In this document: piece by piece, positions 7,888 to 26,173 of the stretch | Layout: the number at the start of each line of letters is the position of its first letter | How positions within the stretch are numbered: position 1 is the stretch's first letter | From: a virus | DNA: 29,992 bases | Virus record (IMG/VR): IMGVR_UViG_3300009509_000167 | Coordinates: 1-29,992 of that record | Direction: 5' to 3' (one strand) | Position numbers and translations under genes: made by a program | Notes under the pieces: generated by a model | Databases searched by the model: none | What the model was told of the DNA's origin: nothing | The model's input: the letters and a program-made list of their open reading frames with translations, nothing else

Positions 7888-7913
7888 CTCGCACCCTCCT
7901 TCTCCACCTTCAG

Positions 7914-7943: not shown

Positions 7944-7951
7944 GAAAATCG

Positions 7952-9214: not shown

Positions 9215-9425
9215 AACCGACAACCGCGCCAACTGGCCCGACTGGCTCGAATCCCTCGACGAACGAGTCGTCGCCTGCCGATACTGCGGCGCAAAAGTGC
9301 GCTGGGGAACCACCTACAAGGGCAAGAAGACTCCCATGAGCACCACCAAGACCAACCCCGAGACCGGCGAGATGCTCTCACACTGGGTCGACTGCCCCCA
9401 CGCGAACAAGGCGAGGAAGAAATGA
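9207..9425 (+). CDS. Small zinc-binding protein, 72 residues
   Basis: CRYCG near 24-28 and DCPH near 62-65 give Cys/Cys plus Cys/His ligands, a likely zinc site around a Lys/Thr-rich loop. Eight-base overlap with the previous gene, and the ATGA overlap with the next keeps it in the operon. The region between the ligands is basic, which could suit nucleic acid. Not recognised beyond this. Confidence 0.65.
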   Translation: MPETDNRANWPDWLESLDERVVACRYCGAKVRWGTTYKGKKTPMSTTKTNPETGEMLSHWVDCPHANKARKK

Positions 9426-9709
9426 CCCCCACCCCACGCGAAGAAGAACGCCAACGAGCCTGCGAACGCTCACGACAATACCTGAACGCAATCGGCATCA
9501 CCGACCCTCGAGTCCTCGAGCTGATCCACGACCCCACCACGGGCCGCAACCTCGACGGCTCGGAAGGACACCCCGGCTGGCAATACTTCTCCGAACAAGT
9601 CATACTGCTCGCCAAAATGCTCCAGGTGTTCCTGCACATGAACGACACACTGGAAGAAGAGGTGAAAAGATGGCGGAGACGTACATCTTCCTCTGCGGCA
9701 TCCTCGTAG
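9422..9709 (+). CDS. Hypothetical protein, 95 residues
   Basis: ATGA overlap with the previous stop. The product has an Arg/Glu-rich N-terminal helix, a middle with ITDPRVLELIHDP and GHPGWQYFSEQ, and a second helix. The last 13 or so residues (Arg then Ser/Ala) overlap the start of the next small gene in another frame and may be under weak constraint. Not recognised. Confidence 0.6.
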   Translation: MTPTPREEERQRACERSRQYLNAIGITDPRVLELIHDPTTGRNLDGSEGHPGWQYFSEQVILLAKMLQVFLHMNDTLEEEVKRWRRRTSSSAASS

Positions 9710-9792
9710 GAGGCTTCATCGTCTACGCGCGGTTCAAACTGAAGGGCGTCGTCGACGACATCGAGCGGCAAGACGAGAAAGACACACGATGA
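9670..9792 (+). CDS. 40-residue membrane peptide
   Basis: The ATG at 9670 is preceded by GAGGTGAAAAG, a good ribosome site. The product is MAETYIFLCGILVGGFIVYA, one hydrophobic span, followed by a basic-then-acidic cytoplasmic tail rich in Asp, Lys and Arg. It overlaps the end of the previous gene by 40 bases. No family recognised; a holin-like or host-membrane role is possible. Confidence 0.55.
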   Translation: MAETYIFLCGILVGGFIVYARFKLKGVVDDIERQDEKDTR

Positions 9793-9805
9793 CACTAGAG
9801 AAAGG

Positions 9806-10183
9806 ATGGGAATCCTGATGGCCCTGTACCGGGAAACCTCCCGAGAGGCGTGGGAGTCGTTCCTGCCCGTGTCGGCCCTACTGGATCGGGCGATCATGGC
9901 CGCGCTGGACGCCGCGGGCCACCGAGGGCTGACGTGCCAGGAGGTGGAGCGCGCCATCGGGCGCTCGCACCAAGCCGTCTCGGGCAACCTCCGGCACCTG
10001 GTCGAGAAGGGCCTCGTCCTGCACTCGGGCGAGTACGGCCAGACGGACTCCGGGCGCCGGGCCATCCTGTGGATTGCCCTGAAGCACCGAGCCACGAAGC
10101 CGGCCCGCGTGTTCGAGGGCGAAGCATGGAGACACCCAACTCTCACCGAGCGGCTGGAACAGAGGAGCCGACGCCATGACTAA
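9806..10183 (+). CDS. Winged-helix DNA-binding protein, 125 residues
   Basis: Residues about 26-85 form a MarR/ArsR-type winged helix: a first helix LLDRAIMAALDA, then LTCQEVERAIGRSHQAVSGN as helix-turn-helix, HLVEKGLVLHSG as the wing entry, and GRRAILWIAL as the closing strand. The C-terminal 35 residues are basic and extended. The start may be 9806 or ATG 9818; a GAGAAAGG site abuts the first, so the second has better spacing. A second candidate regulator in the window, placed mid-operon. Targets unknown. Confidence 0.75.
   Translation: MGILMALYRETSREAWESFLPVSALLDRAIMAALDAAGHRGLTCQEVERAIGRSHQAVSGNLRHLVEKGLVLHSGEYGQTDSGRRAILWIALKHRATKPARVFEGEAWRHPTLTERLEQRSRRHD
10163..10180 (+). repeat. 18-bp translation-start repeat, copy 1
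   Basis: AGGAGCCGACGCCATGAC, containing ribosome site and ATG of the gene at 10176, recurs exactly at 10641-10658. Confidence 0.8.
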
Positions 10184-11314: not shown

Positions 11315-11530
11315 GTGCTCGCTGATTCCGTCATCCGCCGCATCCAGCGTGCGGCATTCGAGAAAGGCGCGAGGGCGCAGCGGCGAGATGATCTCACGTA
11401 CTTGAAGCTCGCAAGTCTGAACGAGGAGTGTGGCGAGAAAACTAGAGGCGAATTGTCGGTGGTCTATGTGGCTCTACTGGACGCGCCGCTCGTCGAGTTC
11501 GAGGAGAAAGGAGACTCACACAATGCGTAA
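11315..11530 (+). CDS. Possible protein with an unclear 5' end
   Basis: GTG at 11315 opens a 71-residue frame with a helix of Arg/Ala, then NEECGEKTRGELSVVYVALLDAP, and a charged end. The ribosome site for this GTG is poor. The frame is open upstream to 11252 and there reads CGRT and CPECGKSI, a clear zinc-ribbon pair, yet it has no ATG, GTG or TTG (CTG at 11273). Either a rare start is used, or one base was gained or lost near 11250 and the true N-terminus lies in the frame that starts with ATG at 11197. Treat the start as uncertain. Confidence 0.45.
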   Translation: MLADSVIRRIQRAAFEKGARAQRRDDLTYLKLASLNEECGEKTRGELSVVYVALLDAPLVEFEEKGDSHNA

Positions 11531-11669
11531 GAACATGCTTTGCGCTCTGATTGCGTGCGCGATCGTCATGACCGTCGACGTCATCACTGCCGGCGCGTTC
11601 GAGCCCCCCGACTGGATGCGCAACGGATGGCTCTACCAGCCCGGCGGATTCTTCTGGTGGCTCTTCTAA
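11523..11669 (+). CDS. 48-residue exported or membrane peptide
   Basis: GAGAAAGGAG precedes ATG 11523. The product has a Lys/Arg start, one hydrophobic segment MLCALIACAIVMTVDVITAG and an aromatic, Trp/Phe/Pro-rich outer part ending GGFFWWLF. It looks like a signal peptide with a very short mature part, or a membrane peptide. It overlaps the previous frame by eight bases. No family recognised. Confidence 0.55.
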   Translation: MRKNMLCALIACAIVMTVDVITAGAFEPPDWMRNGWLYQPGGFFWWLF

Positions 11670-11677
11670 CAAGGAGA

Positions 11678-11693
11678 TGTTTCACGTGAAACG
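11678..11693. promoter_or_regulatory. parS-like 16-mer at a translation start
   Basis: TGTTTCACGTGAAACG matches the ParB-binding consensus TGTTTCACGTGAAACA at 15 of 16 bases, with a perfect 14-bp palindrome (GTTTCACGTGAAAC, 11679-11692). It spans the interval between the AAGGAG ribosome site (11671-11676) and the GTG start (11686). I see no second copy in the window. ParB of the host or of the phage could bind here. Confidence 0.75.
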
Positions 11694-12483
11694 CGCGTTC
11701 TTCATCCTCCAGGATACCGACATCCGCGATCGCTCCGACGCTGACATCATCAACGACTTCGGCGTCTACGGCCTCTTCGTCTGCAACCCCAGCATGGATG
11801 GAGCCAAAATCAACCGCATGAGGGGCCTCATCCCCGACTCGCTCTACTACGCCTACGACAACGTCTTCGACGCCCCCAACAAGGCGTGGAATGACCCCTA
11901 TTGGGTCAAGAAACGCCAAGTCATGGGACTCATGTCCTTCTCCTACTGGGGCGACGATGCAGGCGTCAGGCCAGCCTACACGCTCACCGAAGCCCAAGCC
12001 GAGAACCTTGCCCACTTCCACATCGCGAACACCAAGCTCGGTCCCTTCGGCTTCGACGGGATCTACTTCGATTGCTTCACCAACGGGATCCCAGACTGGA
12101 GGAGAGGGGTACTCACCAAGCAAGGCTTCTCCGGCGACGTCATCCAGGACCTCGAGTACCAGTACCGGCTAGGGCGCAGATTCTACACAAGCCTGCTGAG
12201 GCACAAGACCGCCTTCCAGCTCGTCGCCAACACCGATGGGATGGTCGAAGACCCGTGCTTGCATGGCATCACCCTGGAAACCGCCGAAGGCGACAAGCGA
12301 GACCTCTTCTGGATGCTCGGACGCATCGGCGCCCAGCGCCAGCTCTGGAACGAGGAGTATGAGTTCGTCCCCGAGAAGTTCGTCATCTGGGTCAAGCACG
12401 AGGAACACCGCCGCGCCGCCGAGCTCATCTCGGACGCCGTGGACAACGCCTACGTCGGCACCGTCCGGAAGGCCGGAAACTGA
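11686..12483 (+). CDS. Glycoside-hydrolase-like protein, TIM-barrel type
   Basis: The motif FGFDGIYFDCF (about 122-132) is the barrel strand with the DGIYxD acidic pair seen in GH114-like and related families that act on polygalactosamine-type polymers. Upstream, ADIINDFGVYGLFVCNP and YYAYDNVF fit the earlier strands; later, FQLVANTDGM and HGITLETAE (with a candidate second acid) fit strands 6-7. Length suits one barrel, with no signal peptide. I prefer GTG 11686: AAGGAG lies nine bases upstream, while ATG 11677 directly abuts it. The longer start adds MFH, encoded by the parS-like site. Placed just before the packaging module; it could be a host-wall or capsule-degrading virion enzyme. Substrate unproven. 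Confidence 0.6.
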   Translation: MKRAFFILQDTDIRDRSDADIINDFGVYGLFVCNPSMDGAKINRMRGLIPDSLYYAYDNVFDAPNKAWNDPYWVKKRQVMGLMSFSYWGDDAGVRPAYTLTEAQAENLAHFHIANTKLGPFGFDGIYFDCFTNGIPDWRRGVLTKQGFSGDVIQDLEYQYRLGRRFYTSLLRHKTAFQLVANTDGMVEDPCLHGITLETAEGDKRDLFWMLGRIGAQRQLWNEEYEFVPEKFVIWVKHEEHRRAAELISDAVDNAYVGTVRKAGN

Positions 12484-12752: not shown

Positions 12753-12910
12753 TGCCAGCCGTGACCAAGAAGGTCAAGGGCGGCTACAAGTGCTACTCCC
12801 ACCGCGGTAAGGGAGGCCGCGCACTCTCCAAGGAGCCCAAATCCGAGGAGGACGCAAACCGCCAGTGCCGCGCAGTCAACCGCTCTCTCAAGAAAGCGGG
12901 GAAAATCTAG
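12752..12910 (+). CDS. Small basic protein with GGYKCYSH segment, 52 residues
   Basis: TGATG overlap with the previous stop, and GAGGGAGG upstream. The product is Lys/Arg/Gly-rich with KVKGGYKCYSHRGKGG near 7-22, then a helix with EEDANRQCRAVNRSL. I know this pattern (basic KGGYxVYS strand, then a Lys/Gln helix) from many short proteins encoded near phage terminases; it has no assigned role that I can cite. Likely DNA-binding by charge. Confidence 0.65.
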   Translation: MPAVTKKVKGGYKCYSHRGKGGRALSKEPKSEEDANRQCRAVNRSLKKAGKI

Positions 12911-13269
12911 TGGAATGGGGATCTCTTCTCTGCGGCTTCGGACTCGGAATCGGTCTCGGGGTTGTGGCTGGGTTCTTCACGGGAAGTTGGGCGCAGAGAA
13001 AGATCCCCTTCCGCACTATCCCCACACGCCGACTCGTTGAGGGACTCCTAGAGACGCCAGCCACCGCACCAAGGCAAGCGCCTGAGGGTTGGGGAACGAT
13101 GCCCCAAGGCCCTCCCCCATCACCCGAAGAGCGTACCGAGCACCCAGCCGGACGACGGCCACCGACCACCCAGGAAGCCCGAGCCGCCCGCCAGAACAAG
13201 AAGATGAGCGAGGGCGCCAAACTCCTGACGCAGCTCGAGGCCATAGAACTCGGCCAGCACAAAATCTGA
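12910..13269 (+). CDS. Single-span membrane protein with long charged tail, 119 residues
   Basis: GTG at 12910 overlaps the previous TAG and has GGGGA upstream. Residues about 4-25 (SLLCGFGLGIGLGVVAGFF) form one Gly-rich span; the rest is Pro/Arg/Glu-rich and disordered, ending in a helix with KKMSEGAKLLTQLEAIE. The in-frame ATG upstream lies in the preceding gene and is less likely. A signal-anchor topology with the tail in the cytoplasm is plausible. It lies just before the terminase where small-terminase genes often sit, but it does not resemble one. Confidence 0.6.
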   Translation: MEWGSLLCGFGLGIGLGVVAGFFTGSWAQRKIPFRTIPTRRLVEGLLETPATAPRQAPEGWGTMPQGPPPSPEERTEHPAGRRPPTTQEARAARQNKKMSEGAKLLTQLEAIELGQHKI

Positions 13270-13278: not shown

Positions 13279-15597
13279 ATGCTCACGTTCAACGAGCGCG
13301 TCGAGTGGATGGCCGACAACCTCAAGATCATCGACAAGCACGCCCGCAAAGCCCCTCTCGTCCTCAACGAAGTCCAGCTCATCCTCGAGGCGTACAAGTG
13401 CCAGTGCGCCGCCGAAGAGCAAATGTGCCGCATCCTCGTCCTCAAGGCCCGCCGGGAGGGTGTTTCGACGTGGGCTGAGGCGACACTGTTCCTGGACGCC
13501 TTCGAGAACGACAATCAGTCGATCCTGATCTGCGCCCACAAGCAGAAGGCCACCGAGTACCTCCTCAGCATGTCCACCCGCTACCACGCCAACCTTCCCG
13601 AGGACATCCGGCCGAAGCTGAGAGCCGCCTCGGCCGGCAAGATCCACTTTGACGCCAACGACTCCTTCCTGCTCGTCGAGACCGCCGGATCTGGCGCCTC
13701 CGCCGGTCGGGCCTTCGGCTTCAACCGCGCGCACTTCTCAGAGCTCGACTCCTGGCCCAACGCCAGCGGAACCTACGGCGCCATCATGCAGACCATCCCG
13801 GACCTGCCTCAGACCGTCGTTATCATCGAATCGACGGCCAACGGCCCGATGCTCATCATGGACGAGCTCTGGACCCAGGCCAGCGCCGGGCGCAGCGAAT
13901 ACAGGCCGTTCTTCTTTGCTTGGCACGAGTTCCACGAGTACGTTCGCAGCATCTCCTGGCGGGACCTTCGCAAGTACGCACCCCGCCAGTGGCTCATGAT
14001 GCACAAGAACTCACTCAGACACTGGGAGAAGCACGATGACACCCTGGGGAGTCGATTCATCGAATCCGGCGGAGTCGATCCAGGAAGAACGTCAGGCGGC
14101 ACTCGAACAGCACATGCTGAAGAGGAGGGACAAAAAGCTCCGAGAATCACTGTCTCAGGGACTTTCGGACTTCCAGGCGTACGCAGCCAGCCAGGGGTAC
14201 GTACACGGACACTTGGTGCCCGTCTTCCTCCCGGATTCGACTTCGATCCCGGAGGCGGAACTCGAGAAGCTGGGAATCATGAGGATCGGGGCGGGGATGA
14301 TGATGCTCAATGCGAGAGTGGACCTCTCGACGGTGAGGGGTCAGCCGTTCATCAGGTTCGTGGCAGCGGTCAGCCTCCCGCAGGAATTGGACTCTCAGGG
14401 CAACCAACTCAAGAAGGCTCGGATAGAACCCCTACTGAACTCGACGGACTTCGAGAGATTGCTCGACCTAACACAGAGCGCTCCGGGCTCCTGAACCTAG
14501 AGCAGGCATATGTGTCGAGCCTGACAGATTACGAACGGGATCTCGCCAAGGAGTTCCCCCACATCACGCTGGACCACGTCAACTGGCTCCGCTACACGCT
14601 CGAATCCAAGTGCAAGGGCGACGAGACCTCCCGACGCCGCGAGTACCCCTCGCGACCAGATGAAGCCTTCGAGGCAACTCAAGCCTACGTGCTGGATCCA
14701 ATGATGCTCTCCTCGTGGAGGAAGTTCGCCGAGGAGAATCCAGGGCACCGGGTGACCATGCTCATCAAGGAGATCCAGGAGGACTACTACGTCGTCGGCT
14801 ACGACTACGACGAGCGCGGAGGGATGATCGAGCTCTATCCCTGGCCGGACGAAGACGGCAAGCTGCGCTTTGTGGACCCGCAGGACCAGTATTGTATGGC
14901 GATCGACTGCGCCCAGGGCATTCCCGGCCAGGAGCACGATGCGACGGTCGGAATCGTGGTCTCGGTCAAGGAGGGCTATCAGGTAGCTGAGTTCCGCGCC
15001 CAGATCCCGGCCGATGATGCCGTCGACCAGCTTGAGCGACTAGCGATATTCTTCAACAGGGCGATAGTGGCGATCGAGATCACGGGAGGCTTCGGCATTC
15101 CTTATATCCGTCACTTCACCGACCGCAAGACTGTGCAGCTCTACGAACGCCAGCAGTTCGACAAAGGCACGAAGCGCTATCTCAAGGTTCCTGGCTGGTC
15201 GACGGACTCCAAGACGCGCCCAGGCATGGTTTCCGAGACCCAGTACGCCACGCGACACGATTCCTGCCAGCTACGATCTATCGCAACTATCGACGAGTGC
15301 CGTACTCTCTGGCGCAACCCGAAGACCGGAAAGGTCGAAGCGCGGCCAGAGTGCCATGACGACGGATGGGCGGCATGGGGCATCGCCCTGAACATGCGCA
15401 ACGAGCTCGCCAAACGCACCCGGGAGAAGCGAAACGCAGAGCTCGAGGAAAATAGCATCCTCGCGAGACTGAATCGACTTGACAAGGAGCAGCGGATTCA
15501 AGCTAGATTTGAGAATATACGAGTGCCGAAGATCCAGGCCCGATTCGTACATGGCAAGGCGGGCCGAAGAGTCGACGGCCGGCGGAGTGTCTTCTGA
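13279..15597 (+). CDS. terL: Terminase large subunit with a ~150-residue overprinted insert
   Basis: This is the ATP-driven motor that packages and cuts phage DNA. N-terminal ATPase: LKARREGVST (55-64) as the Walker A variant of terminases, HFSELDSWP (152-160) as Walker B region, IIESTANG (182-189) as coupling motif. C-terminal RNase H-like nuclease: MAIDCAQG (Asp543), VAIEITGG (Glu600) and HDDGWAAW (Asp694/695). The linker part LTDYERDLAKEF and REYPSRPDEAFEA also fit the family. At 772 residues it is far longer than the usual 450-550. Residues about 253-405 are Gly/Arg/Pro-rich and unlike a folded domain, and another gene is open in the +1 frame there (14036-14494). Both flanks are in the same frame. 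Confidence 0.9.
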   Translation: MLTFNERVEWMADNLKIIDKHARKAPLVLNEVQLILEAYKCQCAAEEQMCRILVLKARREGVSTWAEATLFLDAFENDNQSILICAHKQKATEYLLSMSTRYHANLPEDIRPKLRAASAGKIHFDANDSFLLVETAGSGASAGRAFGFNRAHFSELDSWPNASGTYGAIMQTIPDLPQTVVIIESTANGPMLIMDELWTQASAGRSEYRPFFFAWHEFHEYVRSISWRDLRKYAPRQWLMMHKNSLRHWEKHDDTLGSRFIESGGVDPGRTSGGTRTAHAEEEGQKAPRITVSGTFGLPGVRSQPGVRTRTLGARLPPGFDFDPGGGTREAGNHEDRGGDDDAQCESGPLDGEGSAVHQVRGSGQPPAGIGLSGQPTQEGSDRTPTELDGLREIARPNTERSGLLNLEQAYVSSLTDYERDLAKEFPHITLDHVNWLRYTLESKCKGDETSRRREYPSRPDEAFEATQAYVLDPMMLSSWRKFAEENPGHRVTMLIKEIQEDYYVVGYDYDERGGMIELYPWPDEDGKLRFVDPQDQYCMAIDCAQGIPGQEHDATVGIVVSVKEGYQVAEFRAQIPADDAVDQLERLAIFFNRAIVAIEITGGFGIPYIRHFTDRKTVQLYERQQFDKGTKRYLKVPGWSTDSKTRPGMVSETQYATRHDSCQLRSIATIDECRTLWRNPKTGKVEARPECHDDGWAAWGIALNMRNELAKRTREKRNAELEENSILARLNRLDKEQRIQARFENIRVPKIQARFVHGKAGRRVDGRRSVF
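14036..14494 (+). CDS. Nested 152-residue protein inside the terminase gene, +1 frame
   Basis: The frame looks more like protein than the terminase frame over the same bases: a helical Gln/Glu/Arg/Leu-rich N-terminal third (EERQAALEQHMLKRRDKKL near 17-35), VHGHLVPVFLPD, a mixed centre with GIMRIGAGMMMLNARVDL, the strand FIRFVAAVSLP (about 104-114), and a helical acidic end. GGGAG precedes the ATG with suitable spacing. It has no known homing-nuclease motif and I do not recognise it. It may be an acquired gene whose insertion kept the terminase frame open, or a true overprinted gene. Confidence 0.6.
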   Translation: MTPWGVDSSNPAESIQEERQAALEQHMLKRRDKKLRESLSQGLSDFQAYAASQGYVHGHLVPVFLPDSTSIPEAELEKLGIMRIGAGMMMLNARVDLSTVRGQPFIRFVAAVSLPQELDSQGNQLKKARIEPLLNSTDFERLLDLTQSAPGS

Positions 15598-16154
15598 TGA
15601 TCTACAACTACCGCTGCCGCATGTGCGGCCAGACCTTCCAGGACGCAAAGAGCGTGGAATCCCGATACACCTCTGCCATGTGCCCCTACTGCTACACCGA
15701 GGGCGCTGAGACCATGCGGGACCCGGAAACGCACGAAATGGTCTCCAAGCTCGAGATTCTACCCGCCAAGCGCGTCCATATCATGAAGCGCGCCGTCGAG
15801 GCCGAGAGCGAACGACGGCACTCAGACGAAGGCGTCCCCCAGCCCGGTCTCGGGCCAGAGGTAAGGACCAGAACGAGCAAGGAGCTGCGCGAGGAGTGCG
15901 AGAAAGCCCGAGAAAAGCTCTACGAGCGTACCTCGAGGCCACACAGCGTCATACGGCCCTTCCCCAAGGATCCAGCAGACCCCAGGGCCGGCGTAGTCTT
16001 CGAGAAGGTCACCAACCAGGGACAGGGATTCGACCCAGGAGTGATCGCACCCGTGGACGAGCTCGGCGAACCTGCCGAGAACGAACTAGATCGAGAGATC
16101 AGGGAACTCCAGGAAGCTCTAGGCGAAGACGCCGAGCTTCTGAAGGGTGAGTAG
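15597..16154 (+). CDS. FmdB-like zinc-ribbon protein with C-terminal extension
   Basis: Starts YNYRCRMCGQTF, the first knuckle of FmdB-type ribbons, with CPYC near 29-32 as the second. The remaining 150 residues are charged, coiled-coil-like, with Glu/Arg-rich helices and a Pro-rich middle. TGATG overlap with the terminase stop. FmdB-like ribbons between terminase and portal are frequent in podovirus genomes; their role there is unknown, perhaps in the packaging complex. Confidence 0.7.
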   Translation: MIYNYRCRMCGQTFQDAKSVESRYTSAMCPYCYTEGAETMRDPETHEMVSKLEILPAKRVHIMKRAVEAESERRHSDEGVPQPGLGPEVRTRTSKELREECEKAREKLYERTSRPHSVIRPFPKDPADPRAGVVFEKVTNQGQGFDPGVIAPVDELGEPAENELDREIRELQEALGEDAELLKGE

Positions 16155-16174
16155 CAGGACCCCACGGAGCGATG

Positions 16175-18028
16175 ATGGCACTCGCGGTCGAACACGAGTT
16201 CGTACCCGGCTTCCAGCGCAGCACCCGACCACTTTTCGTCCTTCCTGGCAAGCACAGCAAGGCACGGATAAACCGTCCTGAGTCGGAAATTGTCGCATTC
16301 GGCGAAGCTCTCTACCAGATGGCCCGCCAGTACCGAGATACCACCCTCGGAATGCGCGACCGTTGGGAGACTCATCGTAGCTGGTATCTTGAGTCCTACA
16401 ACTCACATCTTCAGGGAACCTACCTCACCGGGCAGACGACTGAAAACCTGATCGCTGAGAAGATCGACCACCTCGCAGCGCAGCTCACCGACGGGGAACC
16501 CCGCATCCTCTACTTGCCAGAGTCCCAGGCCGACATCGCCTTCACCAAGATAGCCAACGACGCGATTCAGCACGTCTGGGGCGCCCAAGACATGGATACG
16601 CTCGTCTATGAGACGATCCATCCGACCCTGCGCTACGGGACGTGGTACTGGAAGCTAGTGCACGACCCACGCTACGGCCACACAGGTGGAATCGTCCGCT
16701 TCCTGCCGATTCCCGTCTGGAGGATCTACCCAGCCCCGTACGCCACAGACCCAGCGACGGCGCCCTGGATGATCGAAGTGCAGATCCGAACCGTCGGTGA
16801 GATCCTCAACGATTACGGGGTGCATGTCGATCCCGAGATCGCGAGCTCGCAGGAGTTCTCGCCGATTGAAGACCACCTGAAGAGCTATCCCATCTCGAAC
16901 GTCGTGAAAACCGTACCAGAGCCTGGCGGCCCGTACGCTGGCGGCGAGACCGTTCCGTCAGTGCCCGATTCCTACCTCTCCCCCTACGGAGAGGGCGGTG
17001 GCCTCGTCTGCCAGAAAGAGCTCTGGATCCGGGATGGCGCGACGACCCCGCAGTTCTGGATGGAGCACCGAAAGCACGACTCCGTTCTGAGACGGACGCA
17101 CACATTGAAGTACCCAGGTGGCCGCGTGATGTCTTGGGCGAACGGACGGTTGCTCTACGATCGGCCGAATCCGTACGCCGACGGCGAGTTTCCCTACGTG
17201 AAGTTCTACGACGGCTTCATCGACGACTTCTGGTACGGCCTCGGGGAAACCGAGGGACTCATCAATCTCCAGATGCTCCACAACGACACTCACGACATGC
17301 TCAAGCTCATGCACCTCTACACGGCGATGGGACGACTCATCGTCGACCAGTCTACGGGCCTAGACGAGGGGTCCATGAGCAACACGCCGGGCGAGGTCTG
17401 GGTCACGGATCCAGGGACCTTCGACCGCGTTCGTTGGCTCGAAGGAGGGCGCGTGCCCGCGGAGGTATACAACTATCTCCACACTCTGGAGCAGGCGGCT
17501 GATAACCGAACTGGCTCACCTGATGTCACTCGTGGCATCAACCCTACGGGGGTAACTGCTGGTAAGGCTTTGATGTCCCTGCGAGCGGCCGCAAATGTCC
17601 GCATCCGTTCACGACACAAAGGGACAAAGCGTGCCTTCTCGCGGGCTGCTCGCCTGTTCGCGTCGCGCATCCAGCAGTTCTGGCCGGATGAGCTCTTGCT
17701 CTCCATCCTCGGGCCAGAGCGCCGCGCCCTCCTTGAGAATGACCAAGTCCAGTTCCGCCAGTACCAGCTCACACCAGAAGCGCGCATGGCGAACTATCAC
17801 GTGCGCGTCGACCCTGGAATCAACCTCGAGGAGCTCCGCGAAGCAGAGTTCCAGACCCTGATGATGTTCTACTCCATGGGAATCCTGCCGCCAGAGATGC
17901 TCATCGAGGGCTCGAATCTTCACAACCGGGAAGAGATTCTCTCTTGGCTCCCGGTCATGATGGCCCGCCAGAGAATGATGGCGAGCCAAGGGGGTGCAGC
18001 AGCACCCCAGGGAGGACAGGCAAAATGA
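16175..18028 (+). CDS. Portal protein
   Basis: Forms the twelve-subunit ring through which DNA enters and leaves the head. The length (about 617) and layout fit podovirus portals: a helical start (YQMARQYRDTTLGMRDRWETHRSWYLESY), a core with AEKIDHLAAQLTDGEPRILY, conserved WYWKLVHDPRYG and PIPVWRIYPAPYATDP, a long crown-side segment around ETEGLINLQMLHNDTHDMLK, and late helices with GTKRAFSRAARLFASRIQQFW. GGAG precedes ATG 16175 by five bases; ATG 16172 is too close. The stop overlaps the next gene (ATGA). Family firm. Confidence 0.88.
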   Translation: MALAVEHEFVPGFQRSTRPLFVLPGKHSKARINRPESEIVAFGEALYQMARQYRDTTLGMRDRWETHRSWYLESYNSHLQGTYLTGQTTENLIAEKIDHLAAQLTDGEPRILYLPESQADIAFTKIANDAIQHVWGAQDMDTLVYETIHPTLRYGTWYWKLVHDPRYGHTGGIVRFLPIPVWRIYPAPYATDPATAPWMIEVQIRTVGEILNDYGVHVDPEIASSQEFSPIEDHLKSYPISNVVKTVPEPGGPYAGGETVPSVPDSYLSPYGEGGGLVCQKELWIRDGATTPQFWMEHRKHDSVLRRTHTLKYPGGRVMSWANGRLLYDRPNPYADGEFPYVKFYDGFIDDFWYGLGETEGLINLQMLHNDTHDMLKLMHLYTAMGRLIVDQSTGLDEGSMSNTPGEVWVTDPGTFDRVRWLEGGRVPAEVYNYLHTLEQAADNRTGSPDVTRGINPTGVTAGKALMSLRAAANVRIRSRHKGTKRAFSRAARLFASRIQQFWPDELLLSILGPERRALLENDQVQFRQYQLTPEARMANYHVRVDPGINLEELREAEFQTLMMFYSMGILPPEMLIEGSNLHNREEILSWLPVMMARQRMMASQGGAAAPQGGQAK

Positions 18029-19716
18029 GAATCCTACTCTCGGCAATCTGCTTCCTTGTGCTCGTCACGATCTTCCTGGCGAGCAACTACTGGTCAGCAA
18101 CGGCCGATCAGCTTCCGACCTCCGTGGCAGTCGGATCCTTCTCTGGATCAGCTCCGGACAGCTCAGAAACGGGATGCGTCCCGACAGCTCGAGTCCTGGC
18201 CTTGACAGACAAGTCGGCCGAGATCCAGGCGAACATAAATCAGATGTTCGTTCGGGGTGGCGGAACTTACATCATCCTTGAGGGCGACCATGCAATCGAC
18301 ACCCCCTGTACCCTGAAGTTCGGAGTCAGTGTTCTGGGTGTGGGCAGAGACGCGACTACCATCTACATGAGGAAGAACAATCCGGCATTCGTCGTGGATC
18401 CGGACAGCATGGAGTGGTTTACCTCAGGCGGAGGCTGGTCTGGAACGATGCGAAGGTCCATCACTAGAGAATGGATGCTCGGCAATATGCAGATCAGCGG
18501 CAACCTCGCCTACTGCGAAGATTCCACGTCACAGCACGGGCTCTCCATCGTTCTTAGGAGAACCGCTACTGACGAGTGGCACGCAGTCACGGACTTCATC
18601 GTCAACAACGTCGCCTTCAAAAATCTTGGTGGTTCCGGAGTCCACATCGAGTGTGCTGGCGATACCTGCGCGAGCGGGCTTGCCAACTGTATGTATGCCA
18701 ACTACGGAGTCTTCCGGGACTGCGACTTCCGCCAGCTCAACGCGAACTCGCTCTACATGAAGGGAAGGAACATCTTCCTTCAGTTCGACAACTGCAACTT
18801 CCGCCAGCCATACAACGGAACCGGCTACTACACAGGAATCACTAATCCGGACGGCAACCCGTGGAAATACTACTGGAACGTGATGATCGTCGATCACTAC
18901 CAGTCAGACGCCGAATGGGGTCGCGCGAATGGCATCGAGTTCGACCGCTGTGACTTCGAGTCGAGCACGTACGACTCTGGTGGCACATGGGTCAGCGGCG
19001 GGGTCTACATCCAGAATCACATGGGCTACGTTCACTTCGAGGACTGCTGGTTCGAGAACCTGGCGTCTGTCGACGTGCCCTGGCGTTGCATCTACGTCGA
19101 CTCAACTCGCGCCGACGGCGGGCTGTGGACATGGTACAGATTCAAGAACAACCGATCCCTGAGCATCAAGAACTGCAACTTCCAGGGGATGCACTACAGT
19201 CCTGCGCTCGTTCAGGTTACGGGAAGCCTTGCCAGCTTCGAGATGACGGGAAGTCACTTTATCTACGCCGGCAACGAGCTCGATACCGCGCACGTGAGGC
19301 TCGATGGGCACGTAGTCGAAGCCTTGGTGACTGACCGAGAGGAGTGGCACCATCTATTCACAGGCCCAGCACCGAACTTCGCCGGCATCACGTACGTCGG
19401 GATCTCGGCCGGAGACACTTCGGCTACCTACAGAGGTCTCTATCTCGAGGAAGACACCGTGCTTGACATGGTCGACTGGAACTCGAGCGACTTCGCTAGT
19501 GCACCGAACTGCACGGTACTGGTCTACAAGAACGGGAATACTCGGGTGACGGCGATCCCCTGGGGAGGGGCCAACGGGAAGAAGGACCAACTCCGGTTGC
19601 CGCTCAAGGCTGGAGATGTCCTGAACGTCATCTGCAAGGCCAAGGCGGCTTCGCCAGAGAATCCAGATTACCCGTTCATTCAGCTCTGGTTGCGGCCTGC
19701 AAAGGGGAGCTGGTGA
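18025..19716 (+). CDS. Right-handed beta-helix protein with signal peptide
   Basis: N-terminus MRILLSAICFLVLVTIFLAS is a typical Sec signal or signal anchor. From about 75, EIQANINQMFVRGGGTYIIL and then GVSVLGVGRDATTIYM match the opening coils of pectate-lyase-like beta-helices; repeated coils with N/D/G turns (FKNLGGSGVHI, FRDCDFRQLNANSLYM, FDNCNFRQ, FEDCWFEN, IKNCNFQG) continue to about 420. A C-terminal sheet domain follows. Phage beta-helices are usually tailspikes that bind or cut surface glycans and need no signal; here the signal and the place right after the portal are odd. ATGA overlap with the portal stop. Substrate unknown. Confidence 0.75.
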   Translation: MRILLSAICFLVLVTIFLASNYWSATADQLPTSVAVGSFSGSAPDSSETGCVPTARVLALTDKSAEIQANINQMFVRGGGTYIILEGDHAIDTPCTLKFGVSVLGVGRDATTIYMRKNNPAFVVDPDSMEWFTSGGGWSGTMRRSITREWMLGNMQISGNLAYCEDSTSQHGLSIVLRRTATDEWHAVTDFIVNNVAFKNLGGSGVHIECAGDTCASGLANCMYANYGVFRDCDFRQLNANSLYMKGRNIFLQFDNCNFRQPYNGTGYYTGITNPDGNPWKYYWNVMIVDHYQSDAEWGRANGIEFDRCDFESSTYDSGGTWVSGGVYIQNHMGYVHFEDCWFENLASVDVPWRCIYVDSTRADGGLWTWYRFKNNRSLSIKNCNFQGMHYSPALVQVTGSLASFEMTGSHFIYAGNELDTAHVRLDGHVVEALVTDREEWHHLFTGPAPNFAGITYVGISAGDTSATYRGLYLEEDTVLDMVDWNSSDFASAPNCTVLVYKNGNTRVTAIPWGGANGKKDQLRLPLKAGDVLNVICKAKAASPENPDYPFIQLWLRPAKGSW

Positions 19717-19717
19717 G

Positions 19718-20086
19718 ATGAAACGAATCGCAGTATTTCTCGTCTCCGTTTTCGTCGTCTGTATGCTCGCGACAGGAGCATCGCCGAAGCCGCACGCGAT
19801 CTTCGTGATAAACACCTTCGGCATGAAGTATTTCCCCAAGCCCTCGCTGAACATCAGCTCTGCGTTGTATTCCTTCCAATCGACGGCTGCCCCCTACGTG
19901 AGCTTTAGTCGCATATCCGGTCTCAACAACATGGTTCTCGCACTCTACTCGAGTGATTTCGCGGCTGGCGTCGACACTATTCGCGTGGGCACAGTTATCG
20001 TGGAGTACGAATACGGGACGATTGATTCTGTCGCCGTCGTCGCCCTGAACGGTGCCACTGTCCAGGTCGAGGCGATCTGGAAATAG
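19718..20086 (+). CDS. Exported small beta protein, paralogue A
   Basis: Signal peptide MKRIAVFLVSVFVVCMLATG. The mature part is beta-rich and ends with LALYSSDFAAGVDTIRVG and GATVQVEAIWK, a pattern repeated in the next two products (20096 and 20502). One base separates it from the beta-helix stop; the start follows GGGGAGCTGGTGAG. Three such paralogues in a row, each with its own signal, indicate local duplication. Family not recognised. Likely location is the host periplasm, outer face or membrane. Confidence 0.7.
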   Translation: MKRIAVFLVSVFVVCMLATGASPKPHAIFVINTFGMKYFPKPSLNISSALYSFQSTAAPYVSFSRISGLNNMVLALYSSDFAAGVDTIRVGTVIVEYEYGTIDSVAVVALNGATVQVEAIWK

Positions 20087-20095
20087 GAGGTCGCC

Positions 20096-20494
20096 ATGAG
20101 ACTCAGATCGGTCCTCGCCCTTGCGTTCCTGATTCTTCTGGCTGTTCAGGTGCTGGGCAAGCCACACTGGTATCATGCCTACGGAAGCACGGCCACCGGC
20201 TCGATGATCTACTTCCCTAGCCATGCGTCCGGGCTCTCGCTCTGCACCTCGGCAGACACGTTCCCCAACGGGGTGCTAAAAAACGCCTCTCCAACCTATG
20301 TCACGATCGCGATTGTGAGCGGCGGCGGGCCCGTCCTGATGACTCTCTATAGCAGCGATTTCCCCGCCGACTCGGCTAGGGTGACGCTTCGCTCGAATGT
20401 ATATCGCTTCGAGAATGGCGCCCTTGACTCGCTTCTCTTCATCTCCTTCAACAGCGGTCTCGACACTGTTCAGATTGAGGCCGCTTGGAAGTAG
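20096..20494 (+). CDS. Exported small beta protein, paralogue B
   Basis: Signal peptide RSVLALAFLILLAVQVLG. The mature part has ADTFPNGVLKNASPTYV, then LMTLYSSDFPADSARVTLR and the end VQIEAAWK. It shares the LYSSDF segment with paralogue A and ADTFP.G.LK..SPT with paralogue C. GGAGG precedes the ATG. Not recognised beyond the local family. Confidence 0.7.
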   Translation: MRLRSVLALAFLILLAVQVLGKPHWYHAYGSTATGSMIYFPSHASGLSLCTSADTFPNGVLKNASPTYVTIAIVSGGGPVLMTLYSSDFPADSARVTLRSNVYRFENGALDSLLFISFNSGLDTVQIEAAWK

Positions 20495-20501
20495 GTCCGT
20501 G

Positions 20502-20903
20502 ATGAAGAAGACACTCTCCAGCCTACTGCTGCTCACGCTGATTCTGGCAACAAGTCTGTATGCGAGGGGCAAGGACATTCAGACCTTCGAGGGCGGAACC
20601 TCAAGTTTCATGTTCCGTTGGCCATACCCTGGCTTGAACATCGGTCACGCGCTGACGCCGGCTGACACATTTCCGGACGGCAGGCTGAAGTGCGGCTCCC
20701 CGACCAGGATCCTCTTTACCCAAGAGGTGGACTACACCATCCCCATCTCGGTGATTCTCTACTCAAGACACGTCCCGACCGGAAAGGACACTGTTCAGCT
20801 CGGCCCGATCATCTATCTCTGGAATCACGGAGAACTTGACTCAGCTTTCGCCTACAATGTCTTTCTGGGGGCTACGATTCGTGCGGAGGCTGCGTATGAC
20901 TGA
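20502..20903 (+). CDS. Exported small beta protein, paralogue C
   Basis: ATG 20502 opens MKKTLSSLLLLTLILATSLYA, a strong signal peptide. The mature part has ADTFPDGRLKCGSPTRI and ILYSRHVPTGKDTVQLG, and ends IRAEAAYD, aligning with A and B but the most diverged. The frame extends upstream without a good start. The weak ribosome site (TAGGTCCGTG) may be offset by coupling to gene B. The capsid promoter at 20908 follows its stop. Confidence 0.7.
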   Translation: MKKTLSSLLLLTLILATSLYARGKDIQTFEGGTSSFMFRWPYPGLNIGHALTPADTFPDGRLKCGSPTRILFTQEVDYTIPISVILYSRHVPTGKDTVQLGPIIYLWNHGELDSAFAYNVFLGATIRAEAAYD

Positions 20904-20907: not shown

Positions 20908-20935
20908 TTGACTGCTCGATTCTAGCCGCTATAGA
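20908..20935 (+). promoter_or_regulatory. Promoter ahead of the scaffold-capsid genes
   Basis: TTGACT (20908-20913, five of six), a 16-base spacer and TATAGA (20930-20935, four of six). The start point near 20942 leaves a very short leader before AGGAGG (20944-20949) and ATG 20956. It separates the exported cassette from the capsid genes and would let the capsid be made at a higher level. Confidence 0.65.
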
Positions 20936-20955
20936 CTACAGCCAGGAGGTGGCCC

Positions 20956-21393
20956 ATGACTGTTATGCAGGTCCCGGGGATGGGACAGTCACCCCAGGTC
21001 TCCCCGAGGGCCGACGCTAGGCCGACACCCGGGCAGCTTCCGGGCGTGAACCAGACGATGACGCCCCGGGGCGAGGCCCTGGATAAGCTCCATCGTCTGT
21101 ACGGCGAGAACCTGATGCTCATCGCCAAGGAGTTCAGCTCCAAGGGAGTCAACTTCGATCCGGCCGTCATGGCCCGGGCGCGCGATGGGCTCAACCAAGT
21201 GCTGGAAGCCTTCAAGGGCTTCCAGGCGACCGTCGGGCAAGGCCCGCCGGCACAGATGCCCCAGAGGGCGAGGCCCCCGCAGGTGCGACCGCTTGATTCC
21301 TCGGTCGATGCGATCACGCGCGCACCCATGGGTCCCGTCTCGGGGCAGGGTGACCAGAGTTTCGGGAACCCGAGGAACTTCACCCAAGGGTAA
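20956..21393 (+). CDS. Hypothetical structural protein, 145 residues
   Basis: Strong AGGAGG site. The N-terminal 35 residues and C-terminal 45 are Pro/Gln/Gly-rich and likely disordered; the middle (about 38-92) is helical with EALDKLHRLYGENLMLIAKEF and RARDGLNQVLEAFKGFQ. First gene after the capsid promoter and just before the scaffold candidate, so a head-assembly role is likely by position. Not recognised. Confidence 0.6.
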   Translation: MTVMQVPGMGQSPQVSPRADARPTPGQLPGVNQTMTPRGEALDKLHRLYGENLMLIAKEFSSKGVNFDPAVMARARDGLNQVLEAFKGFQATVGQGPPAQMPQRARPPQVRPLDSSVDAITRAPMGPVSGQGDQSFGNPRNFTQG

Positions 21394-21405: not shown

Positions 21406-22359
21406 ATGCCAGAGGACTCCATTCTAAGCGAAGGAAGCCCGATCCATCCGCTGATCCAAGCCCAGCAGGCGTCGGACGCTGCCGCGGCGGCACACGCGCC
21501 AGCAGGGCTCGCGGCAATCACGCAGATGGGCAATCCGGGCCAAGCCGAAGCCCCAGCAGCCCAGGCACAACGATCTGTGACTCCCCAAGGCACGCAGACG
21601 CCCGCGCAGCCCAATCTCCCCGAGACCCCACCGAATATGGTGGAGATCGGTGGAAAGGCGTATCCGGTCGACGAGGTGCTCAAGTGGAGAGACCGCGGCC
21701 TCATGCACCAGGACTACACCCGGAAGACCCAGGCGCTGGCCGAGGGCCGCCGAGAGGTAGCCGACGTGCTCGATGAAGTCCGTAACCTGCGACACGAGCT
21801 CCAGACCGAGAAGGAAGAGCTCCAGAGGTTACGTGAGATCCCCGAGCCGGACGACGAACTCTCAGGCTACGAAGAGCTCGAGGGCCAGTATCCGGGGCTT
21901 GCGTCGGTGATGAAGCGCCAGGAGCTGAGGACCGCAAGACTGGAACAGGCGCTTGCGAGAGAAGCTCAGGAGCGCAAGGACGCGCTCGAGAGGAGTCAGC
22001 GCGAATCAGCCCAACGTCTGGAAAACGAAAGGCTGAGTGCTGAACTTCAGGAGCTTCGCGACATGCCAGGATTCGACGAGGCAGAGGTGCTGAACGTCAT
22101 GCGTCAGCGCGGAATCGCCCATCCCCGGGACGCCTTCATGGCAATCCACGGGATGTCGATCGGGCGTGTCATCGGTCAGCGAGAGCTTGTGGAGCGCGGA
22201 GGGTCCGCCGCACCCGTGATGGGCGCCGGCCAGACCCAAGTGTCCCCGTCGTTCCAGCAGACGGGCAGGGTGCAAGCTGGACAGTTTGACCCCGCCCAGA
22301 CCGACTGGAACTCAATCCGAGACGAGGCACAGCGCCAGGCGGGATACCCGCCAGGCTAG
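21406..22359 (+). CDS. Scaffolding protein candidate
   Basis: Disordered Ala/Gln/Pro-rich N-terminus (1-75), a small folded segment with VEIGGKAYPVDEVLKWRDRG (79-98), then a long Glu/Arg/Gln coiled coil (about 110-225), and a Gly/Gln tail. A charged coiled-coil protein directly before the major capsid gene is the normal place and shape of a podovirus scaffold, which shapes the procapsid and then leaves. The N-terminal residues YTRKTQALAEGRREV also resemble phage head scaffolds. GGAGC site before ATG. Call rests on shape and order. Confidence 0.7.
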   Translation: MPEDSILSEGSPIHPLIQAQQASDAAAAAHAPAGLAAITQMGNPGQAEAPAAQAQRSVTPQGTQTPAQPNLPETPPNMVEIGGKAYPVDEVLKWRDRGLMHQDYTRKTQALAEGRREVADVLDEVRNLRHELQTEKEELQRLREIPEPDDELSGYEELEGQYPGLASVMKRQELRTARLEQALAREAQERKDALERSQRESAQRLENERLSAELQELRDMPGFDEAEVLNVMRQRGIAHPRDAFMAIHGMSIGRVIGQRELVERGGSAAPVMGAGQTQVSPSFQQTGRVQAGQFDPAQTDWNSIRDEAQRQAGYPPG

Positions 22360-22425: not shown

Positions 22426-23394
22426 ATGTCGCTAAACTCCCTGTACGACGAGCTGGCGACCGCGACCGAGGACTACTTCGCGCCAAAGGTGGTCGACAAC
22501 ATCTTCAAGTCGAACCCCTTCGCGTTGAGACTTCGCGCGAACGCCCAGACTCTGGGAGGCGGCCTCACGATCAACATGCCCATGATCTACAAGACGGGAT
22601 CGGGCGAGTGGATCGGTGAGTGGCAGACGTTTGACGCTGAGTACGAAGAGGAAGTCGGCGCGGCTCAACTGGACTGGAAAATCTACACGACCGGAGTGGT
22701 CTTGTCGGCTCTCCAGCTCCTGAAGAACGCCGATGCGCCGACGCGGCGTTTCGACCTGGCGAAGATCAAGAACATCGTCGCCGCGAAGCGCTGTGCGCAC
22801 AATCTGGGGCAGGCCGTGTTCGACCTGAACGATGGCGCCCTGGATGCCAAAGCCGTCGATTCGCTTGACCTGGCCGTTTCGGACTCCACCGAGACCGGAA
22901 CGACTTACGCGGGGATCACCCGCACGGGCTCGGGCGATGTCGCGGTCTGGGATGCCAACATCTCTTCGGCCTCCGCGCTCACCCTCGAGGCGCTCCAGGA
23001 TCTCTGGGGCGACTGCGAAGAAGGTGATGAGTCCCCGGACTTCAACGTCACTTGCCAAGCCAACTTCAACAGGTACTGGAACCTTCTGACGCCGATGCAG
23101 CGTCTCGGCTCCGATCTGATGGGCAAGGCTGGCTTCCGGAGTCTTCAGTTCAACGGTACGCCGGTCGTGGTCGACAGCCACGTCTCGAGCGTCGCCGGCG
23201 GCGGCTCCTACGATTACTGGTACATGCTGAACATGGCGCACGTGATTCTGCGGCCGCACCGGCTGGCGTTCTACAAGTTCATGCGCAGCGTGATGCCCTG
23301 GAATCAGTGGGTCGCCCTCGGTCGGTACTTCTTCGTTGGCAACCTCTGTGTGGACGCTCCGCGCTACCAGGGGAAAGCCAAGTTCACGAGTTAG
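22426..23394 (+). CDS. Major capsid protein
   Basis: The shell-forming protein of HK97-like fold. N-terminal arm (1-40) with DYFAPKVVDNIFKSNP; then LTINMPMIYKTGSGEWIGEW as first core strands, a helical spine around LALLKN-type segments (about 95-130), and late strands PVVVDSHVSSV and YWYMLNMAHVILRPH leading to a conserved end RYFFVGNLCVDAPRYQG. Length 322 suits podovirus capsid proteins. It lies after the scaffold candidate. Its leader has two short hairpins, one pairing the start region. The N-terminal arm is copied in the small gene at 8990-9214. Confidence 0.82.
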   Translation: MSLNSLYDELATATEDYFAPKVVDNIFKSNPFALRLRANAQTLGGGLTINMPMIYKTGSGEWIGEWQTFDAEYEEEVGAAQLDWKIYTTGVVLSALQLLKNADAPTRRFDLAKIKNIVAAKRCAHNLGQAVFDLNDGALDAKAVDSLDLAVSDSTETGTTYAGITRTGSGDVAVWDANISSASALTLEALQDLWGDCEEGDESPDFNVTCQANFNRYWNLLTPMQRLGSDLMGKAGFRSLQFNGTPVVVDSHVSSVAGGGSYDYWYMLNMAHVILRPHRLAFYKFMRSVMPWNQWVALGRYFFVGNLCVDAPRYQGKAKFTS

Positions 23395-23915: not shown

Positions 23916-25430
23916 GTGGACCCCAACGTCGAAGTGATGGATCAAGTGGAAGCTCCCGTCTATAAGACGGAGAGCCAGAGACTGCTGTGCCCTTCGGCTA
24001 CGGCCGAGAGGCTCAAGGAGTTCGCGTTTGGCGTCGCTGTCTTGACCCCGACCAGAGTCATGGTCAGGGAAACGGCGCTTGCACTGAAGCGTCTCATCAT
24101 TCCGATGTTTGGGAATCCTATCTACTACTCTCCAGATGGAATGCCTGTCGACCAGGCGAGGAATACCGTGGTCGCTCAGGCGCTGCATGATGGGGTGGAG
24201 TGGTTGTTCTTCATCGACTACGATGTCGCTCCACCCCCTCACGCTCTCGTGAAGCTGCTGAAGCTGAACACCCCGATCTCCGCTGGCGTTTATCACCTGA
24301 AATCCATCCCGAGCTGGCCGCTGATCTACATCAAGGGCTGGCCGTGGGCGTTCGAGGACTATGACCTTGGAGACCTCATCGACGCCGATGGCTGCGGAAT
24401 GGGCTGCACGCTCATTCACATGGACGTCTTCAGAAAGATCAAGCCGCCGTGGTTCAAGACCTCCGAGGGTTACGATCCCGAGACGTCTTGGCCCGCCGGC
24501 TTTCACACAGAGGACATCTACTTCTGCAACAAGGCGAAGGACGCTGGGTACAAGGTCATCGTAGACACCACCATTCAGGCGGATCACGTCGATTGGCGCT
24601 CAGGGATGATCTACCGCTACATCCCAGATCCGAACGGCGGGAAACGTGGAACTCCCGGATGGCTCTATCGACGCAACGGGCTCTACGCGGTCGAAACGAT
24701 GGGGGATCTCCGTCATCCTGGGTACAGCCGTGCGAAAACTGCACCGCCCAAGCGCTCCAAGCAGATGATTGACCTCGGTTGCGGGCCTGTCCCGGCGCCA
24801 GGCTTCACCGGGATTGATCTTCACCCCCAATCACCCGACATCATCGAGGGAGACATCTCGGATCTTCGGTGGTATCGAGAGCGTTTCGGCCTCGCTGAAG
24901 CGATCCGCAGTTCTCATTCCCTTGAGCACATGAGTCATCAGGACGTCGTCAGGATCTTCCGCGACTGGGTGAACACGTTGCAGCCCGGGGGGCGGATCGA
25001 GGTCAGGGTTCCTGACGGAGAGTATCACATGCGCGAGTTCATCAAGAGGATCGACGAGAAGGAGGATGTCGATCCCATGTGCGACTGGCTGAACGCTACG
25101 TTGTTCGGCTATCAGATCGGGAAGGGTCAGGAGCACAAGACGCTGTTTACGGCAAGGAGGCTTGAGGCTCTAGCGAACACCGTCGGACTGGTCGACGTGA
25201 AGGTCGAAAAGAAGATGATCGAGGGCGACAAGTCCATGATGCCCGATACGGCAGAACTCGTGCTGACGGCACGCAGACCGGAGGTCGAGAATTGTCAACC
25301 CAAACCATCACAGAACGAACCCGAGACAGCCACGGGGTCTACATCAGGGAAACGGGGAAGTTCACGGCGTCGGGTACGTCAGACCTGCAAATCCAAACGA
25401 AGCTCAAGCACGTCATCTGGGCGAAAGTGA
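23916..25430 (+). CDS. Glycosyltransferase fused to a SAM methyltransferase
   Basis: GTG 23916 follows GGAGG by eight bases. Residues about 35-270 form a GT-A glycosyltransferase: LFFIDYDVAPPP (97-108) with the DxD metal motif at 101-103, VYHLKSIPSWPLI, and TEDIYFCNKAKDAGY (199 onward) with the ED pair. Residues about 280-455 form a class I methyltransferase: IDLGCG (285-290), Asp301 after strand 2, and SSHSLEHMS (332-340). It would move a sugar and methylate the product, perhaps on a virion or host glycan. The C-terminal 46 residues overlap the next gene in another frame and are Ser/Arg-rich. Placement in the head module is unusual. Confidence 0.8.
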   Translation: MDPNVEVMDQVEAPVYKTESQRLLCPSATAERLKEFAFGVAVLTPTRVMVRETALALKRLIIPMFGNPIYYSPDGMPVDQARNTVVAQALHDGVEWLFFIDYDVAPPPHALVKLLKLNTPISAGVYHLKSIPSWPLIYIKGWPWAFEDYDLGDLIDADGCGMGCTLIHMDVFRKIKPPWFKTSEGYDPETSWPAGFHTEDIYFCNKAKDAGYKVIVDTTIQADHVDWRSGMIYRYIPDPNGGKRGTPGWLYRRNGLYAVETMGDLRHPGYSRAKTAPPKRSKQMIDLGCGPVPAPGFTGIDLHPQSPDIIEGDISDLRWYRERFGLAEAIRSSHSLEHMSHQDVVRIFRDWVNTLQPGGRIEVRVPDGEYHMREFIKRIDEKEDVDPMCDWLNATLFGYQIGKGQEHKTLFTARRLEALANTVGLVDVKVEKKMIEGDKSMMPDTAELVLTARRPEVENCQPKPSQNEPETATGSTSGKRGSSRRRVRQTCKSKRSSSTSSGRK

Positions 25431-25585
25431 CGAGCGCAGGGGCAAGCGCGACGAACAACATTGAGTTCTACGTCAACTCTGACGACAACGCCGGGAACGA
25501 CCAGGCGGGAGACGGCGGAATCATCCACATTGAGTCTGGAATTGCCGCCGAGTTGCATCTCTACGAAGCGATCGGAGTCGGCTGA
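25292..25585 (+). CDS. Small beta protein, tandem paralogue 1
   Basis: TTG start with GGAGG seven bases upstream. 97 residues, beta-rich: YIRETGKFTASG, LQIQTKLKHVIWAKVTS, NNIEFYVNSD, IHIESG. It starts 139 bases inside the glycosyltransferase end. The next two products repeat the same order of strands, so these are tandem duplicates. Possible fibre, spike or head-fibre subunits by position; not recognised. Confidence 0.65.
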   Translation: MSTQTITERTRDSHGVYIRETGKFTASGTSDLQIQTKLKHVIWAKVTSAGASATNNIEFYVNSDDNAGNDQAGDGGIIHIESGIAAELHLYEAIGVG

Positions 25586-25878
25586 TGGCAACCGCAACGA
25601 AGACGGTGCGGGGACGAAACGTCGTCGGCACGCACCGAGAGGAGTACGGAACCTTTACCGGCGCTGCGGGAGGAACCGTCGAGCTCCAGACCGCGATCGG
25701 GCACCTCGAGCAGGTGGAGGTCGTGGTCTTGGGTTCTACGGCCACCGCAGACGTCGACATCTACTTGAACACGAACACGACGACGAACAATGTGGCCGGC
25801 TACGAAGGGATGTTCCATCTCGAGAAGGGCCGTGACGTATCTCTACAAGGCCACGGGAAGGGGCTAGGCAATGGCTGA
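25585..25878 (+). CDS. Small beta protein, tandem paralogue 2
   Basis: TGATG overlap with paralogue 1. Strands EYGTFTGAAGGTVELQTAIG, VEVVVLGSTAT, VDIYLNTNT and MFHLEKG match those of paralogue 1 in order and spacing. The same length of 97 residues supports duplication. It ends GLGNG. Function unknown, virion surface likely by context. Confidence 0.65.
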   Translation: MATATKTVRGRNVVGTHREEYGTFTGAAGGTVELQTAIGHLEQVEVVVLGSTATADVDIYLNTNTTTNNVAGYEGMFHLEKGRDVSLQGHGKGLGNG

Positions 25879-26173
25879 CGTCACGATCACCCGGCGCATT
25901 CACCGGATGACGGGAAGCAAGCACGAGTTCGAGTTGATCTTCACGACTACCGCTGCGACGGGCACGGTGCAGACCGGCCTCGGTTGGGTCGAGTACGCAT
26001 CAATGCAGGGCATGGACGCGAACGACAACAACGTCAGGATCTGCAAGAACTCGTTGACCGCTTCCGCAACGGAGGATGATCCGGGTGTCGTCTACTTCGC
26101 TGGGGCGGCGACGTCGAACACTTACCGGATGATCGCCAAGGGACGGGGCCGTCGATCCGACGATCACCGATGA
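25871..26173 (+). CDS. Small beta protein, tandem paralogue 3, C-terminus possibly frame-broken
   Basis: Eight-base overlap with paralogue 2. Strands ELIFTTTAATGTVQTGLG, VEYASMQG, VRICKNS and VVYFAG repeat the pattern. The last nine or so residues (RGRRSDDHR) differ in composition, and the other frame at the same place starts a lectin-like protein without a start codon. The protein may therefore continue into that frame after a one-base shift near the G-run at 26141-26148. Confidence 0.6.
   Translation: MADVTITRRIHRMTGSKHEFELIFTTTAATGTVQTGLGWVEYASMQGMDANDNNVRICKNSLTASATEDDPGVVYFAGAATSNTYRMIAKGRGRRSDDHR

Follow-up and report, generated by a model that had tools for sequence, protein, structure and literature searches.

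What are four genes with signal-like starts doing in the middle of a phage head module, given that the head genes of tailed phages normally yield cytoplasmic proteins? We examined this question in the IMG/VR record IMGVR_UViG_3300009509_000167, analysed over its entire length of 29,992 bases (hereafter the window) and itself an incomplete fragment. The right half of the window is a P22/Mx8-like podovirus head module, and the four genes (g1 to g4, together the cassette) lie in it between the portal gene (16172–18028) and a small gene at 20956–21393, all on the + strand. An earlier note on this DNA had placed four consecutive genes right after the portal. This layout stands: the portal is P22-like (PF16510, E=5.6e-14; phrog_156, E=1.2e-31) and is followed by g1 (18025–19716; 563 amino acids (aa)), g2 (19718–20086; 122 aa), g3 (20096–20494; 132 aa) and g4 (20502–20903; 133 aa), although the start of g4 had to be corrected to 20502, with GTG at 20499 as a possible alternative. 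The first gene encodes a large predicted exported protein with putative right-handed beta-helix repeats, and the other three encode small predicted exported beta proteins. The right-hand border gene, which lacks a signal by the heuristic described below, occupies the place of Mx8 p46, a match by position. Our literature searches found no description of exported genes between portal and scaffold.

Signal calls were based on a home-made heuristic that evaluates a charged n-region, a hydrophobic h-region (Kyte-Doolittle) and small residues at the cleavage site. All four proteins passed it as resembling carriers of general secretory (Sec) signals, with h-region means of 3.24, 3.21, 3.41 and 2.77 for g1 to g4, respectively, and each starts with a charged-then-hydrophobic segment followed by a possible signal-peptidase site; the lipobox pattern was false for all four. 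Among the 19 window genes tested these were the ones that passed, while the remaining 15 failed, including one entry (23917–25296) that was read in the wrong frame and is uninformative. To set a chance level, we read six-frame open reading frames (ORFs) of at least 60 aa from their first start, and 2 out of 201 passed, namely g2 and g3; this reading misses g1 and g4 because an upstream start lengthens their ORFs. When any start was allowed, 8 out of 90 ORFs of at least 100 aa passed, with g1 to g4 at 2.77–3.41 and the four others at 2.01–2.12. In six more distant phages (L003–L008) none of the 100 genes listed for the head region passed, and in the unannotated contig L009 one first-start ORF (7107–7907) did, probably because of a wrong start. 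We strongly infer that the cassette products are exported, in agreement with the four signal peptides read by the earlier note.

The same slot was found occupied in two related contigs. L002 (IMGVR_UViG_2162886006_000015; capsid 59% and portal 51% identical to those of the window) has the order portal, small exported, large exported, small gene, scaffold and capsid, with a small predicted exported protein at 1778–2182 and a large one of about 690 aa at 2179–4251. L017 (IMGVR_UViG_3300012140_000037; portal 54% identical) has the order terminase, zinc-ribbon gene, portal, small exported, large exported, small gene and scaffold, with the portal at 5611–7482, the small predicted exported protein at 7495–7899 and the large one, again of about 690 aa, at 7896–9977. 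In L002, 2 of 15 genes passed the heuristic, and these are its two cassette genes; across the three contigs all eight cassette proteins are signal-like. An exported cassette was present in 3 of the 3 distinct contigs holding the portal-to-scaffold interval (window, L002 and L017). The cassette of contig L011 is a copy of that in L002, with 100% identity across the 690-aa protein, and was left out of this count; L020 ends inside the portal and has no bearing on the cassette. Contigs L022–L027 are more distant; the any-start signal flags raised at 620 in L020 (inside the terminase), 16264 in L024 and 553 in L027 did not correspond to a post-portal cassette.

We then compared the cassette proteins with each other, expressing relatedness as a z score against 200 shuffles after removal of the first 22 N-terminal residues. 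The g2, g3 and g4 products were mutually related (z = 19.5, 14.4 and 10.9; 0 of 200 shuffles in each case), which bears out the earlier description of three related small proteins, and they were also related to the one small protein each of L002 and L017 (z 6.2–17.0; 0 of 200 shuffles). Of the three copies g2 is the nearest to these single copies, and therefore g3 and g4 probably arose by tandem duplication in the line of the window. The possibility that the small proteins are copies of part of g1 was rejected, as no z exceeded 2.5. The large proteins behave differently: those of L002 and L017 are 71% identical, their signal segments differing in sequence yet remaining hydrophobic, whereas g1 showed no relation to them (z 0.8 for the bodies and -1.2 for the C-terminal parts). 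Thus, all three contigs keep the small protein, as a single copy in L002 and L017 and in triplicate in the window, whereas its large companion is exchanged and the gene order differs. Comparison of L002 with L017 put the ratio of nonsynonymous to synonymous substitution rates (dN/dS) of each of the two cassette genes at about 0.1, at a dS close to saturation, and the cassette genes are under purifying selection; in the portal gene, the gene at the p46 position and the scaffold gene dS was saturated, so no ratio is given.

Relatives were sought with several queries, and the numbers confirmed out of the stretches examined were 0 of 1 for the portal, 2 of 11 for the capsid, 0 of 11 for g3, 2 of 25 for the portal pair (once more the L002 contig, together with L011, its copy), 4 of 77 for the capsid pair, 3 of 3 for the 690-aa protein (itself and the copy included) and 8 of 66 for the terminase pair (including the contig of L017). 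The search with g1 matched no stretch, tblastn against phages gave no match for g1, g2, the L017 small protein or the L002 large protein, and tblastn against plasmids gave none for g1 or the L017 large protein. The earlier note had asked whether the proteins co-occur in phage and bacterial genomes. On the phage side they do, since a small and a larger exported protein stand together at the same slot in L002 and L017, as its proposal of small partners would have it; on the bacterial side two genome scans confirmed no relative (0 of 115 and 0 of 21 stretches).

As regards the fold of g1, we counted six turns of the form [FIMV].[DNGRS][CS].F, where shuffled sequences averaged 0.14 and none of 2000 reached six; the pattern was written after inspecting the sequence. 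The central part of the protein also gave a weak match to PF13229 (E=0.0022), below the Pfam cut-off. We read g1 as a right-handed beta-helix on the repeats and this sub-threshold match, in keeping with the long beta-helix gene claimed earlier. The HalA profile of NCBIfam hit g1 (E=0.0023), but its score of 17 bits lay below the cut-off of 250 and the hit was dismissed. No match above cut-off came from Pfam, PHROGs or NCBIfam for g1 to g4 or for the L002 and L017 cassette proteins scanned, and sequence searches of the cassette proteins against the PDB returned nothing meaningful. The 690-aa protein contains the motifs IDDG and EIALHG and looks by eye like a NodB-type deacetylase; EIALHG lacks the second His of the NodB/CE4 metal motif. 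Neither Pfam nor the PDB gave a match for this protein in L002 or L017, which fell short of the NodB/CE4 family profile.

The packing of the genes bears on when they would be used. The start codon of g1 overlaps the stop codon of the portal gene (ATGA); spacers of 1, 9 and 7 bases precede g2, g3 and g4, respectively (4 for g4 if counted to the GTG), and a gap of 52 bases comes next. Since portal and cassette genes overlap or nearly touch, the arrangement argues that the cassette is translated late in infection, together with the head genes.

Our leading reading, held tentatively and at somewhat below an even chance, is that these late-exported proteins trim or otherwise alter glycans on the envelope or outside the cell, which would let progeny escape. 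The products would leave the cytoplasm before lysis, with the cell still intact, and would act on the envelope or on extracellular polysaccharide. The large protein would bind, cut or modify glycan, as beta-helices of the tailspike type do, and the small ones would bind the same surface or assist it. Progeny would then not be held on the capsule, slime or debris of their own host and would spread more easily, and swapping of the large part would track changes in host glycans. The best mechanistic parallel is WceF of Pantoea stewartii, described in an excerpt of PMC7949094 as a Tat (twin-arginine)-exported, tailspike-like right-handed beta-helix that cuts exopolysaccharide, with its trimer structure solved. 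An exported right-handed beta-helix is common to both, as predicted for g1, and WceF offers a mechanism on extracellular glycan; according to the same excerpt it is bacterial, with a Tat signal and a solved structure, whereas g1 is phage-coded, with a Sec-like signal and no solved relative.

Several points weigh against glycan modification. No enzyme family was found above threshold for any cassette protein in the library scans, and the resemblance of the 690-aa protein to a deacetylase is our own reading of its motifs, one of them incomplete. AlphaFold2 models were poor, with a mean predicted local distance difference test (pLDDT) score of 37.2 for mature g1 alone and 49.8 for g3 with an alignment. 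The export call is a heuristic prediction, the cassette is known from three sequences, and no isolate or host was found for the phage. A broader idea, which we think rather unlikely, is that the head operon holds a swappable "secretion slot", through which living infected cells would secrete virus-coded factors in step with assembly. It would combine a constant small protein with an exchangeable large effector, and the burst would enter surroundings that are already remodelled.

The main rival, unlikely in our estimate and yet the best placed of the alternatives, is receptor masking or superinfection exclusion, in which the exported proteins would coat or plug the phage receptor and thereby keep rival phages, or the new particles of the phage itself, from adsorbing to the infected cell or to debris derived from it. 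The predicted exported position and the tandem copies of the small beta protein in the window would suit such a role. However, one would expect such proteins to work early in infection or from a prophage, and the genes sit in the head operon; moreover, an exchanged partner of 560–690 aa would be atypical. Llp of phage T5 shares with the cassette a phage-coded exported product, but Llp is a lipoprotein and g1 to g4 have no lipobox. Exported phage proteins that block receptors are known, T5 Llp being one (excerpt of PMC9586334).

The other explanations are less likely than receptor masking. An improbable one is that the products are virion parts, with g1 as a spike, g2 to g4 as head or tail decoration and an N-terminal segment that is merely signal-like. 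The location among head genes would agree with this, and beta-helices are common in tailspikes; tailspike depolymerases would share that fold with g1, as judged from its repeats. Tailspikes are virion parts and are not known to carry a signal, however, and g1 differs from them in its place directly after the portal and in its signal-like N-terminus; the charged-hydrophobic-small pattern recurs, moreover, in every cassette protein of the three contigs. Other small proteins, not exported, do lie downstream in the window (25292–25585, 25585–25878 and 25871–26173), which would again suit virion parts, but the small exported family had no profile relation to them (hhalign probability 0.1%), although one pair, the L017 small protein and the 25871–26173 product, gave z=3.9. 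On the profile result we rejected the exported small proteins as copies of the downstream ones. The three downstream proteins align loosely (23–29% to the first) and follow a glycosyltransferase-methyltransferase gene both in the window and in L002, where the counterpart region is 8358–9235.

Lysogenic conversion of the moron type, in which expression from a prophage would alter adhesion or the surface of the lysogen, seems quite improbable. It was one of the roles proposed by the earlier note, which had also given the gene after the cassette its own promoter. That promoter did not survive the scan: searching 10.5 kb for the sigma-70-type consensus, the one type scanned, we found a 9-of-12 match at 20908–20937, one of 2 such sites, and shuffled sequences gave 2.7. 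Inside the cassette there was no promoter-like or terminator-like site. Morons in P22-like and lambdoid phages likewise add exported accessory products among structural genes, and exported accessory genes of prophages are a known kind; morons typically have their own promoter and prophage expression, and the cassette differs in being packed into the head operon. Composition gives the idea some support, as the cassette has the lowest G+C (guanine plus cytosine) content of 272 equal-length stretches of the window (0.567 vs 0.611 outside). Its third-position G+C (0.69–0.74), however, shares part of its range with the packaging and head genes (0.73–0.83); there is therefore no sign of recent import, and we rejected that idea. 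No integrase or repressor was detected among 10 window proteins scanned, the sole match being an insignificant excisionase (E=0.073); with an incomplete record and a scan of those 10 proteins, this absence carries little weight. The two genome scans gave no prophage relative either. Thus, from the host-surface or lysogenic-conversion set proposed earlier we keep an exported accessory set between portal and scaffold and set aside conversion from a separate promoter.

A lysis role for the large protein, as a Sec-exported wall-active enzyme resembling some phage endolysins, is similarly improbable: signal-bearing endolysins exist (e.g. UFJF_PfDIW6; excerpt of PMC8951688), the scan of window proteins revealed no lysis gene and phage BUCT555 carries lysis genes among its head genes, but g1 is a predicted beta-helix without a known wall-hydrolase domain, it is unrelated to its counterpart in L002 and L017, and three small paralogues would be left unexplained.

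The rest of the head module was identified as follows. Upstream of the portal lie the terminase large subunit (13279–15597) and a zinc-ribbon-like gene (15597–16154), and downstream of the cassette, on the + strand, the head scaffold (21406–22359; phrog_3927, E=7.9e-7) and the major capsid gene (22426–23394; phrog_9953, E=3e-42). The nearest annotated capsid proteins are 25–28% identical (10 records) and belong to Mx8, Mx9, BUCT555, ppBjS10J-1, Ruegeria 45A6 and uncultured phages; the hosts in these names are Myxococcus for Mx8 and Mx9, Stenotrophomonas for BUCT555 and Bradyrhizobium for ppBjS10J-1. The Mx8-like head modules of Mx8, BUCT555, ppBjS10J-1, ct52p938 and ctMlz233 (capsids 25–27% identical to that of the window) have a similar order of terminase, portal, scaffold and capsid; unlike the window, these five regions had no gene called as signal-bearing. 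In ctMlz233 (L005 1320–4283) three non-exported cargo genes, one of them PhoD-like, lie between terminase and portal, so the neighbourhood of the portal may be a hot spot for insertions.

Within the terminase gene we found a +1-frame ORF in the window (14036–14494), in L017 (3347–3799) and in L020 (1266 to about 1619). The products from the three phages were related to each other (z 15.8 for L017 and L020, 7.3 for the window and L020, and 5.4 for the window and L017), whereas the terminase-frame peptides over the same stretch were unrelated (z 1.5, -0.4 and 1.2, respectively). In the window, G+C at the three codon positions was 0.605/0.414/0.743 in the nested frame and 0.740/0.601/0.418 in the terminase frame, so that the signature of a gene falls in the nested frame; this ORF is probably an unannotated overlapping gene.

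Other features were noted along the module. A small protein with one hydrophobic segment, similar by eye in three phages, is encoded directly upstream of the terminase (window 12865–13269; L017 2112–2399; L020 136–483). Further upstream, 11523–11669 encodes a peptide of 48 aa that begins with a hydrophobic, signal-like segment; the gene right after it (11677–12483) has a product that resembles TIM-barrel glycosidases by eye and matched nothing in Pfam or PHROGs, and the pair may serve in lysis or act on glycans. Finally, a glycosyltransferase-methyltransferase fusion gene follows a decoration-like gene (window about 23916–25430; L002 6980–8383), its domain matches coming from the L002 copy, and it perhaps glycosylates virion proteins.

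A conserved place for exported proteins in the head operon would mean that this phage lineage couples assembly to a remodelling of the outside of the cell. The locus points to candidate means by which phages might release their progeny or protect the cell they have infected, with three sequenced cassettes at hand.

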